The translations under genes were made by a program, and so were the position numbers. Below, piece after piece: positions 704 through 51,944 of a stretch of DNA of 64,000 nucleotides; position 1 is the stretch's first letter; every line of letters begins with the position of its first letter. The stretch is taken from the NCBI RefSeq assembly GCF_016900045.1, contig NZ_JACSNP010000002.1:1-64000 (forward strand), read 5' to 3'. The notes under the pieces are model-generated. The model worked only from the letters and a program-made list of their open reading frames with translations, searched no databases and was not told the DNA's origin. Source of the stretch: Fusobacterium mortiferum (lineage in GTDB: Bacteria > Fusobacteriota > Fusobacteriia > Fusobacteriales > Fusobacteriaceae).

Positions 704-1459
704 TTATTTATTTTCTTTTAAAGATTTATATTTTTCAACCTTATCTGGAAAATATTTTTGTAAAATTTGAAGATAAGTACCATCGTTATCAAGTTTTAAA
801 ATAGCTTGATTAATTTGTTCAGCTAATTTAGTTTCTCCTTTTCTAAGAGCAATAGAAGCTCCAGGTTGAGTATCGATTACAACATCAACTTTTTTAAGAC
901 CACTCATGGATTTTAGATATTCTTCTCCAGTTACATCTGCAATAATAACAGCATCAATTTTATTATTTTGTAAATCCATTAATGCTCCAGTCCAAGAGTT
1001 GTATAATTGAGGAGTAGCTCCAAGTTCTTTTGTAAACTCTTCTTGAATAGTTCCTATTTGAACTCCTACTTTTTTACCCTTTAACTCTTCTTTTTTAACT
1101 AGAGGACTATTTTCATTTACAATAACAAAATGTTCATCAGAAGAGACTAACATATAAGGCATAGAGAAAGTAACAGCTTTTTGTCTTTCTGGAGTTTGTG
1201 ACATACCAGCAATAACAGCATCAATTTTTTTCATTTGAAGAGCTGGAAGTAGTCCATCAAATCCCATATTGCTCCATACGATTTCATAACCTAATTCTTT
1301 TCCAATGGCGTCCATAAGCTCGATATCAAATCCTACCATTTTTCCATTTTCAAGATATTCGTAAGGCATAAATTCAGCATTTGTACCTACATACAGTTTT
1401 TTAGCAGAAAATGATAGTGAAGATAAAACCAACATTAATAATAAGATAACTTTTTTCAT
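704..1459 (-). CDS. Amino-acid ABC transporter substrate-binding protein
   Basis: A 251-residue periplasmic binding protein of the SBP_bac_3 family (the GlnH/ArtJ type). It has a signal peptide of about 18 residues (LLLMLVLSSLSFSA). The mature N-terminus (LYVGTNAEFMPYEY) and the GFDIELMDAIGKELG segment are characteristic, followed by the DAVIAGMSQTPER and GVQIGTIQEE regions of the two lobes. No permease or ATPase follows, so it must work with a transporter encoded elsewhere. It is 27 bp downstream of the amidohydrolase and probably shares its leader-controlled transcript. This suggests uptake and hydrolysis of a peptide-like or acylated amino acid. Confidence 0.88.
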   Translation of the reverse strand: MKKVILLLMLVLSSLSFSAKKLYVGTNAEFMPYEYLENGKMVGFDIELMDAIGKELGYEIVWSNMGFDGLLPALQMKKIDAVIAGMSQTPERQKAVTFSMPYMLVSSDEHFVIVNENSPLVKKEELKGKKVGVQIGTIQEEFTKELGATPQLYNSWTGALMDLQNNKIDAVIIADVTGEEYLKSMSGLKKVDVVIDTQPGASIALRKGETKLAEQINQAILKLDNDGTYLQILQKYFPDKVEKYKSLKENK

Positions 1460-1486: not shown

Positions 1487-2659
1487 TTATTTAGAACAAT
1501 TTTGAAATTCCTCTTTAATCTCTTTTAAAAGTTGAGGATTAGTAAATACATCTATAGCTGTAAGAGCCATAGCAATAGCAGCTTCTTTCATTCCTTTATA
1601 GGCTTCAGGTTGAATAGTAGCACAAGCAAATTCTACACTGTGACCAGTTAGATGGTTTGTAGTAAGTGGGAATGATGGATGTATAGTAGGACAACAATGG
1701 CTTACATCACCCATATCAGTTGAACCAAATCCCTTTTTATCTACAATCTTTGTAACCCCTTGAAGTTTTAAGTTTTTCTCATAAGTTTCAGACAATTTTT
1801 TATTTGTAACAAGGTTAGCAAAACTAGTCTCGTAGTTTTCCATCTCAAGTGTAGTACCAGTAGCAATAGCAGCTCCTCTGGCACAGTTTTTAACTCTTTC
1901 AACCAATTCCTTTAAATAAGATAAAGTTTCAGCTCTTACATAGAAATTAGCAACAGCTAAATCTGGAATAATATTAGCAGCTTTTCCACCATTACTAATG
2001 ATTCCATGAATTCTAGCAGTCTCTACTGTTTGTTGTCTTAGTGCGTTGATAGAATTGAATAACATAAGTACTCCATCAAGAGCATTGATTCCCTCGTGTG
2101 GAGAACCAGCAGCATGAGCTGTTTTACCTTTAAATGTAAATTGAATAGCTTCCATAGCTTGAGATTTTCCACTTCTAGTATGTGCCTCTCCAGTAGGATG
2201 AACAGCCATAGCTATATCAATATCATTAAATATTCCGGCTTTAGCCATATCAACTTTGGCTCCACAAGTTTCTTCAGCAGGTGTACCAATTACCAATATT
2301 TCACCAGCTATATCTCCTATAACTTCTTTTAAAAGTATTCCAGTTGCAACACTAGTTACACCAAAAATATTGTGTCCACAACCATGTCCTATTCCAGGAA
2401 GAGCATCATACTCAGCAAGGATAGCTACTTTAACTCCTCCATTTCCAGATTTATATCTTCCTATAAAAGCTGTAGGAATATCAGCAAAATTATCAGAAGT
2501 CTCAAATCCATGTTTTTTTAAAAGTTGAGTAAGTGTACTACAAGCTTTAAACTCCTTGTGTCCAAGTTCAGGGTTATTGTAGATATACTCATTTGCTTCT
2601 TTAAACTCCTCAAGATAATTATCAAAGATCTTTGAAAGTTTTTCTTTTAATTGTTCCAT
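1487..2659 (-). CDS. M20-family amidohydrolase (AbgB/N-acyl-amino-acid hydrolase type)
   Basis: A cytosolic metal-dependent amidohydrolase of 390 residues. Visible motifs are the metal-binding HGCGHN, the TPAEETCG region with the catalytic Glu pair, the AVHPTGEAHTRSG strand, and AHAAGSPHEG in the lid domain. The family cleaves N-acyl amino acids, p-aminobenzoyl-glutamate or dipeptides; the substrate cannot be told from sequence. The start is set at 2659 (MEQLKEKL) because GGGAGG lies directly upstream. A longer reading frame to 2695 would run through the terminator hairpin. It is preceded by a leucine-rich leader peptide and attenuator-like hairpin, and followed by the binding protein. Confidence 0.88.
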   Translation of the reverse strand: MEQLKEKLSKIFDNYLEEFKEANEYIYNNPELGHKEFKACSTLTQLLKKHGFETSDNFADIPTAFIGRYKSGNGGVKVAILAEYDALPGIGHGCGHNIFGVTSVATGILLKEVIGDIAGEILVIGTPAEETCGAKVDMAKAGIFNDIDIAMAVHPTGEAHTRSGKSQAMEAIQFTFKGKTAHAAGSPHEGINALDGVLMLFNSINALRQQTVETARIHGIISNGGKAANIIPDLAVANFYVRAETLSYLKELVERVKNCARGAAIATGTTLEMENYETSFANLVTNKKLSETYEKNLKLQGVTKIVDKKGFGSTDMGDVSHCCPTIHPSFPLTTNHLTGHSVEFACATIQPEAYKGMKEAAIAMALTAIDVFTNPQLLKEIKEEFQNCSK

Positions 2660-2683: not shown

Positions 2684-2715
2684 AAAAAAAGTCAATACAC
2701 CTTATATGTATTGAC
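2684..2715 (-). terminator. Terminator hairpin in the amidohydrolase leader (candidate attenuator)
   Basis: On the minus strand, GTCAATACA and TGTATTGAC form a perfect 9-bp stem with a 7-nt loop, followed by seven T residues, 25 bp before the amidohydrolase ATG. An upstream segment (2747-2743 with 2713-2709, and 2740-2734 with 2726-2720) can pair with the 5' arm and would exclude this hairpin. It could also simply end phoU transcription, but the promoter at 2889-2917 and the leader ORF lie between phoU and it. Confidence 0.7.
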
Positions 2716-2754
2716 TCAAAATTTTTCTATGTTAAAAATTGCCAATAGAAATTT

Positions 2755-2850
2755 CTATAAGCTTAGAGCAATATTAATACTAGGTATATATAAAGATAAG
2801 GTATTCAATTTTATATTAAATTTCCTTAACTTTAATGTCCTTAGTAACAT
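2755..2850 (-). CDS. Leucine-rich leader peptide (31 aa)
   Basis: A short ORF reads leftward from the ATG at 2850 to a TAG at 2757-2755. It begins MLLRTLKLRK and ends IALSL, with nine leucines in 31 residues, two of them as the last and third-last codons. The Shine-Dalgarno GGGGGAGG is one of the strongest in the window, 6 nt from the ATG, and a near-consensus promoter lies about 40 bp upstream. The stop codon is about 40 nt before the terminator hairpin, the layout expected of a translated attenuation leader sensing charged tRNA-Leu. No homologue is known to me. Confidence 0.65.
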   Translation of the reverse strand: MLLRTLKLRKFNIKLNTLSLYIPSINIALSL

Positions 2851-2888
2851 ATTGTTCCTCCCCCTTTTTAAAACTTCTATTTGAAATA

Positions 2889-2917
2889 TATATACCACAT
2901 TCAGAAAGAAATGTCAA
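2889..2917 (-). promoter_or_regulatory. Promoter of the leader peptide/amidohydrolase operon
   Basis: On the minus strand, TTGACA (2917-2912), a 17-bp spacer and TATATA (2894-2889). It sits right at the phoU stop codon, so the downstream operon is not dependent on pst-phoU transcription. Confidence 0.8.
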
Positions 2918-2923
2918 ACTTTT

Positions 2924-51593: not shown

Positions 51594-51944
51594 GGGGATG
51601 CAAAGGTTTCGACGGGGTTATGAGGTTATAGGTAGCATGCCAGGGTGACCGCTGTGAGAGGTCAACTCATCGTTTAGATGGAAACAGAAATTACGCTTTA
51701 GCTGCTTAATTAGTCAGCTCACCTTTGAACTCTCTCTTCTGTAGGAGAGCTCTAACAAGGTGTTACCAATATACAGATTACCTTTAGTGATTTCTCTAAG
51801 CTCAAAGGGACATTTTAGAGGATAGCTTCAGTCAGCCCTGTCTGTGGGAGTGGCTGTTGCGAAATCTAATAGCAGACTAAGCATTGTAGAAGCCTATGGC
51901 GCTGATAATTTCGGACACGGGTTCGATTCCCGTCATCTCCACCA
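51594..51944 (+). ncRNA. ssrA: tmRNA
   Basis: Begins GGGGATGCAAAGGTTTCGAC and ends GGTTCGATTCCCGTCATCTCCACCA, the alanyl-tRNA-like domain. The tag reading frame is at 51680-51709: GNRNYALAA then TAA. GGGGATG pairs with CATCTCC in the acceptor stem (with a G-T pair). CCA is encoded. Works with SmpB, directly upstream. Confidence 0.97.

Follow-up and report, generated by a model that had tools for sequence, protein, structure and literature searches.

The leader of an M20 peptidase operon

The window analysed here, the whole stretch of 64,000 nucleotides at positions 1 to 64,000 of contig NZ_JACSNP010000002.1 from Fusobacterium mortiferum, carries on its minus strand an M20 peptidase/amidohydrolase gene followed by the gene of a family-3 amino-acid binding protein (Table 1). 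The M20 protein scores 221.8 bits against TIGR01891 (cut-off 153.75) and, compared with solved structures, matches HmrA (3ram, 282.6 bits) and the Xaa-Arg dipeptidase PM20D2 (8xzc, 216.9 bits). The enzyme may be an Xaa-Arg peptidase, although HmrA is the closer of these two relatives. The best NCBIfam match of the binding protein is the Lys/Arg/Orn subfamily at 159.1 bits, which lies below the cut-off of 256.35.

Upstream of the operon, a sequence-only reading of this DNA had described a promoter, a ribosome site, a 31-codon ORF with nine Leu codons, and a terminator ending 25 nt before the M20 gene, all of which are present. The leader ORF further contains two Arg codons, both of them AGG. 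Promoter boxes resembling those of the window also occur in the upstream DNA of relatives. The window promoter does not appear in the output of the promoter scanner because the scanner rule demands a T at the last −10 position, and the three promoter matches that were returned are at chance level (3.6 expected). Two terminator-like sites, one palindrome recognized on both strands, lie between 2560 and 3060, compared to 0.1 in shuffled sequences. The terminator itself was correctly placed 25 nt before the M20 start codon at 2659, while its stem, taken to be 9 bp long, comprises 12 pairs.

In the leader stretch of the window, neither a T-box nor any other Rfam element matches at the gathering score, and scans at low threshold return only far sub-threshold matches (best 31.6 bits versus 59). 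The 31-residue leader peptide has no Pfam match at E 0.001, DUF2618 (SpeFL/orf34) included, which is a weak test for such a short peptide. AAGGA repeats in the leader called to mind GGA motifs of the CsrA type. Elsewhere in the window, a tmRNA gene (RF00023, 161.7 bits) is located on the plus strand at 51594-51944.

Table 1. Positions in the window of the leader elements and of the genes that follow them.
Feature	Positions	Strand	Remarks
Promoter	2889-2917	-	TTGACA (2917-2912), spacer of 17 nt, TATATA (2894-2889); read from sequence
Shine-Dalgarno sequence of leader ORF	2857-2864	-	GGGGGAGG; part also pairs with region 2
Leader ORF (predicted)	2755-2850	-	31 codons, ATG 2850 to TAG 2755; MLLRTLKLRKFNIKLNTLSLYIPSINIALSL; orthologous ORFs in 20 loci
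Arg codon 4	2839-2841	-	AGG; presumed sensing codon from Arg enrichment
Arg codon 9	2824-2826	-	AGG; presumed sensing codon; TAAGG (2828-2824) pairs with CCTTA
CCTTA	2797-2801	-	Pairs with the stretch over the second Arg codon in the leader hairpin
Region 2	2765-2774	-	ATATTGCTCT; alternative partners are the SD/start region or the terminator 5' arm
Region 3	2709-2717	-	GAGTCAATA; terminator 5' arm
Intrinsic terminator	2684-2717	-	12-pair stem 2717-2689, T run to 2684
M20 peptidase/amidohydrolase gene	1487-2659	-	390 aa; relative of HmrA / Xaa-Arg dipeptidase
Family-3 amino-acid binding protein gene	704-1459	-	Second in operon, 27 nt after the M20 gene

Conservation of the leader in Fusobacteriaceae

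The search for M20 orthologues covered all 61 available genomes of the family, 39 of which contain an orthologue at E 1e-120, and the upstream DNA of 34 orthologues was read. A leader ORF with Shine-Dalgarno (SD) sequence, ATG, and stop codon, together with a terminator 22–59 nt before the M20 gene, is present in 20 of these 34 loci, and the binding-protein gene follows the M20 gene in every one of the 20. A 21st leader (L014), which was left out of the leader counts, consists of a similar ORF (MFFKSRIRKQ...) displaced to 442 nt upstream of the gene. In the respective genome (G018), the M20 and ABC transporter leaders (L014 and L213) both appear to be pushed off their gene by a similar insert, perhaps a small mobile repeat. 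No recognized leader precedes the M20 gene in the remaining 13 loci read; three of these (L017, L020, and L117) possess a terminator along with a very short ORF that holds a single Arg. By eye, seven orthologues from beyond the family (L035-L039, L041, and L107; 80 loci fetched) show no such leader. In L113 and L034, from uncultured Cetobacterium, the M20 orthologue is 84% identical to that of the window, no leader is seen, and the binding-protein gene was not found in the flank examined.

The initial choice of M20 leaders was made by eye. Selection of the ORF with the strongest SD, ignoring residues, yields the same ORF in 17 of the 20 loci and a different one in L004, L018, and L112. The SD, the ATG, and the Arg codons are kept across genera, as is the position of the stop codon, whether this is TAA, TGA, or TAG. 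While phoU is found upstream in 11 of the 20 leader-bearing loci, it was not seen within roughly 1.5 kb upstream in the other nine. Since the leader has its own promoter and nine leader loci show no phoU within that flank, the reading in which the hairpin merely ends phoU transcription is not supported.

Arginine codons at the start of the leader

The leader was originally thought to respond to leucine. In codons 2–12 of the 13 distinct sequences among the 20 M20 leaders, 34 of 143 residues are Arg, compared to 6.6 expected from the composition of 59 window ORFs. The same positions hold 26 Leu (17.0 expected) and 19 Lys (19.8 expected). Each of the 20 leaders has Arg within codons 2–12, and 19 have at least two. 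AGG accounts for 43 of the 51 Arg codons in codons 1–12 of the 20 leaders versus 41 of 626 in the window ORFs. Use of this rare codon may sharpen the response; moreover, the AGG stretch base-pairs within the leader hairpin. The number of Arg codons is small in some leaders, with just the two in the window and a single one in L004, where it is combined with a premature stop; the ribosome on L004 would therefore not cover region 2.

Three of the 20 M20 leaders contain no Leu in codons 2–12, and the leader of L018 (MRKIRMRHRRTKNRISV) contains none at all. Thus, of the Leu-rich short ORF anticipated in relatives, the ORF is kept in 20 loci and the Leu codons are not. The Leu enrichment is modest both in the M20 leaders (P 0.018) and in the leaders of argG described below (28 versus 15.7 expected, P 0.0016), in each case with related rows uncorrected, and the ABC transporter leaders show no excess (20 versus 23.4).

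Alternative pairings of the leader RNA

The leader hairpin of the window combines a pairing of the SD/start region with ATATTGCTCT (region 2) and a pairing of TAAGG, which covers the second Arg codon, with CCTTA. When folding starts at the stalled ribosome, ATATTGCTCT pairs with the terminator 5' arm GAGTCAATA. The strongest single duplex formed with this arm in the window is TATTGGC/GTCAATA (−7.0 kcal/mol, P 0.17 versus shuffles), with a partner 6–15 nt past the leader stop. The competing pairing put forward earlier is possible in the window, but conservation of this exact pairing is not supported, as the best partner lies elsewhere in L003, L004, and L005. Both ATATTGCTCT and the TATTGGC site are located where a ribosome at the stop codon would interfere.

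Across 16 leaders, the leader hairpin has a mean z of −3.1 and is weak in L004, L018, and L119. Duplex tests leader by leader are mostly not significant, and therefore we asked where the partner sits with respect to the stop codon. In 13 of 16 leaders, the terminator arm finds its best partner at the leader stop (−25 to +12), compared to an expectation of 5.9 under dinucleotide shuffling (P about 2e-4, related rows uncorrected), the exceptions being L004, L012, and L018. Further, we calculated partition functions with the terminator 3' arm not yet made and a ribosome placed at the last of the early Arg codons. Under these conditions, upstream pairing of the terminator arm exceeds the value without a ribosome in 14 of 16 leaders and the value with a ribosome at the stop codon likewise in 14 of 16. 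Mean arm pairing amounts to 0.51 for the stalled ribosome, 0.29 for no ribosome, and 0.26 for a ribosome at the stop; L016 fails both comparisons, and L005 and L018 fail one each. By eye, changes in the Arg stretch are matched by changes in its partner from lineage to lineage, as in GATAAGG/CCTTATC, GGATAAGG/TTTTATCC, and GAGACAA/TTGTCTT. In these predicted folds, the mutually exclusive 1:2, 2:3, and 3:4 pairings typical of trp and his attenuators occur in this leader type at places suited to respond to ribosome position, with the exceptions of L004, L012, L016, L018, and L005.

Arg-coded leaders in front of other arginine genes

In the source genome, Arg-coded leaders are also located before the genes of an amino-acid ABC transporter, before a binding protein (SBP) gene together with argG (L159), and before argH; in relatives, such a leader is additionally found before argC-argJ-argB. 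The identity of argG is supported by a score of 580.3 bits (cut-off 334). For the ABC transporter proteins, even the best-matching models give scores under cut-off, and arginine is therefore only presumed as substrate.

In a search of 12 genomes of the genus for SD + ATG + AGG-x-AGG, downstream genes were ignored. The pattern as such is barely enriched, with 656 matches versus 525 for the reversed control, and in the source genome 36 versus 49. Six stretches, chosen by eye among 150 of the 656 matches listed, are all leaders, situated before a permease-ATPase-binding protein operon (L153, L154, L155, and L158) or before binding protein and argG (L156 and L157). Five of the 36 matches in the source genome are in frame. 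Two are the ABC and SBP-argG leaders, and the others fall in a lysine riboswitch (RF00168), inside the coding sequence of another gene (L161), and on contig C218. The riboswitch (95.3 bits; L160:4153-4338, minus strand) precedes another amino-acid transporter-like operon of the source genome.

Picking the ORF with the strongest SD, again irrespective of residues, results in at least two Arg in codons 2–12 in 23 of 24 ABC picks (from 27 regions) and in 20 of 23 SBP-argG picks (from 29 regions). Distinct picks hold 60 Arg among 197 residues for ABC (9.1 expected) and 27 among 132 for SBP-argG (6.1 expected), and a terminator follows the leader in 21 of the 24 and 21 of the 23 picks, respectively. 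In genomes G014, G022, G033, and G082, the M20, ABC permease, and argG genes are clustered in about 9 kb. A Na+/H+ antiporter-like gene is inserted between the Arg-coded leader and argH in L223, L255, L256, L261, and L265. Its sole NCBIfam match (L255) reaches 125 of 750 bits, far under the cut-off, so that the gene may carry an arginine-related solute.

The N-terminal domain of ArgR (PF01316) scores over cut-off in 0 of the 61 family genomes compared to 8 of 14 controls; genome G021 has one weak sub-threshold match. On the best reading of these sequences, the window attenuator would belong to an arginine regulon of Fusobacteriaceae. Leucine is very likely the wrong amino acid because the same leader type precedes the other arginine genes of the genome: the described parts are real, and their amino acid appears to have been misread.

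A hairpin shared by ABC and argH leaders

ABC and argH leaders contain a further element, R1, between the Arg-coded leader and the terminator. R1 is composed of TTTTGNAAAGATT, a short stem, and ATGAGYATA. In an alignment of 23 sequences, including L222:1233-1290 and L192:1321-1386, two-sided changes occur at all five stem pairs, and 94.8% of cells pair compared to 78.3% in shuffles. The tandem G-A pattern of R1 may point to a k-turn.

At E 0.01, the R1 model identifies 46 places in 31 of the 61 family genomes; at E 0.001, it detects R1 in 29 of 98 genomes of the phylum, every one in Fusobacteriaceae. According to coordinates, 29 of the 46 places lie before ABC permeases; 21 of these 29 also served as model rows. 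Among the remaining 17 places, 14 were read (two of them model rows), and 12 of these precede arg genes. The arrangements comprise argC-argJ with argB or others, the antiporter-like gene with argH, argH, argH-argG-argC, and SBP-argG. R1 at L257 precedes an amino-acid permease-like gene, and L264, the weakest match, has no arginine gene. An Arg-coded ORF stands ahead of R1 in 11 of the 14 places read, with L257, L262, and L264 as exceptions. While argH (L222) as well as argC, argJ, and argB (L260) score above curated cut-offs, the genes at other R1 loci were named from translated starts.

The window leader lacks R1, and no match better than E 0.4 is found in 23 M20 and 12 SBP-argG loci, which include that of the window; L263, an SBP-argG locus outside those 12, is matched weakly (E 0.0025). 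The M20 leaders of L006, L007, L009, and L010 contain a stretch (AAGATTTGGG ... CCCATGATCATA) that by eye resembles a degenerate R1 and goes unscored by the R1 model. R1 has no Rfam match at gathering score in the 20 loci scanned and represents a candidate new RNA motif linked to arginine genes. A joint reading, which we consider rather unlikely, would place the whole Fusobacteriaceae arginine regulon under leader attenuation instead of ArgR and add R1 as a second sensor, an RNA that would either bind arginine itself or serve as the site for a further regulator. With similar reserve, the regulon would then comprise argC-argJ-argB, argG, argH, the presumed arginine ABC transporter, and the presumed Xaa-Arg peptidase.

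A proposed model for arginine-dependent attenuation

The window leader very likely acts as an arginine-sensing transcription attenuator, ribosome-mediated and of the trp type. We infer both the signal and the direction of the response from the leader sequences. With charged tRNA-Arg plentiful, a ribosome at the leader stop would cover region 2, and the terminator would form before the M20 and binding-protein genes. On a leader free of ribosomes, the start region would hold region 2 and the terminator would form as well. If arginine is short, the ribosome would stall at the early AGG codons, open the leader hairpin, and free region 2, which would pair with the terminator 5' arm. The operon would then be transcribed, and arginine could be recovered from peptides. 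The leader thus probably switches on an arginine-scavenging operon when arginine is scarce. This agrees with the first description of the locus in so far as a leader-peptide transcription attenuator precedes a scavenging-type operon. As in trp- and his-type leaders, the conserved codons match the presumed pathway, being Arg codons with sister leaders before argG, argH, and argC-argJ-argB.

In a leucine attenuator, stalling at Leu codons under leucine shortage would bypass the terminator. Nine of the 31 window codons encode Leu, and the M20 and argG leaders share the slight Leu excess given above. However, early Leu is missing from three M20 leaders and any Leu from L018, Arg is kept in 20 of 20, the ABC leaders show no Leu excess, and the sister leaders precede arginine genes, which leaves leucine control highly improbable. 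A second reading retains the RNA switch and replaces its trigger: a basic R-x-R nascent peptide would stall the ribosome in response to a small molecule, be it arginine, an arginine relative, or a drug. Macrolide-dependent leaders with an RLR-type (+X+) arrest motif are known, and basic-x-basic occurs in codons 2–12 of 19 of 20 M20, 23 of 24 ABC, and 16 of 23 argG leaders. Yet seven argG leaders and L016 keep Arg without this motif, and the C-terminal peptide is not kept, the segment AATACCTTATC being read in differing frames. Moreover, genes for arginine synthesis and uptake fit induction by scarcity better than by excess, and in the window the downstream genes encode an M20 peptidase and a binding protein rather than drug resistance as for macrolide-type RLR leaders. 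We therefore regard nascent-peptide arrest as unlikely.

The position of phoU directly upstream in the window might suggest a terminator that works independently of translation, given that an intrinsic terminator after phoU would be ordinary. It would end upstream transcription or fix a constant level, and the ORF would be incidental. Such a terminator hardly accounts for the retention of SD, ATG, Arg codons, and stop position across relatives, for the stability of the leader hairpin, or for an antiterminator placed at the stop codon. In addition, a promoter separates phoU from the terminator, and phoU is not found within the upstream flank in 9 of the 20 loci; we assign this reading very little probability. 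Transcription attenuation at Arg codons, in a leader that belongs to a set before arginine genes, is the best-supported mechanism.

Relation to known systems

If true, attenuation at Arg codons would explain arginine sensing in a family without recognizable ArgR and widen the reach of classical, codon-sensing attenuation of transcription to include arginine as well as the Fusobacteriota. It would also provide the M20 peptidase with a likely role and link the predictions for several operons through one signal and one codon class. Literature searches limited to PubMed Central listed no arginine leader-peptide attenuator in Fusobacteria.

Like trp- and his-type attenuators, the leader combines sensing codons in a short ORF with pairings that exclude each other and an intrinsic terminator before the first gene. 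It differs in its Arg sensing codons, in its Fusobacteriaceae host, and in an operon that serves to scavenge the amino acid and not to synthesize it. As stated in the relevant parts of PMC2965389, leaders of this type were previously known to its authors only in Proteobacteria and Actinobacteria, to which they added Firmicutes; the word arginine is absent from its main text. For Actinobacteria, the sections of PMC1262725 on arginine operons report no RNA element, and they mention arginine T-boxes outside that group. In systems with ArgR/AhrC, arginine synthesis and uptake genes are likewise under one signal; unlike those systems, none of the 61 Fusobacteriaceae genomes searched carries the ArgR N-terminal domain over cut-off.

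Sensing of arginine through Arg codons of leader peptides is already published for Salmonella speF and Staphylococcus rbf, where it acts by other mechanisms. In Salmonella, Arg codons of the leader ORF orf34, rare AGG among them, sense arginine supply and control speF (ornithine decarboxylase) by Rho termination, RNase G decay, and masking of the ribosome binding site, as described in the corresponding passages of PMC6386406. In contrast, an intrinsic terminator before an M20 peptidase gene is found here. In S. aureus, according to the portions of PMC13009471 dealing with rbfL/rbf, translation becomes arginine-sensitive through rare AGA/AGG codons that encode part of a short leader peptide, and stalling blocks the ribosome site of the biofilm regulator rbf, whereas stalling on the Fusobacterium leader is proposed to relieve transcription termination.
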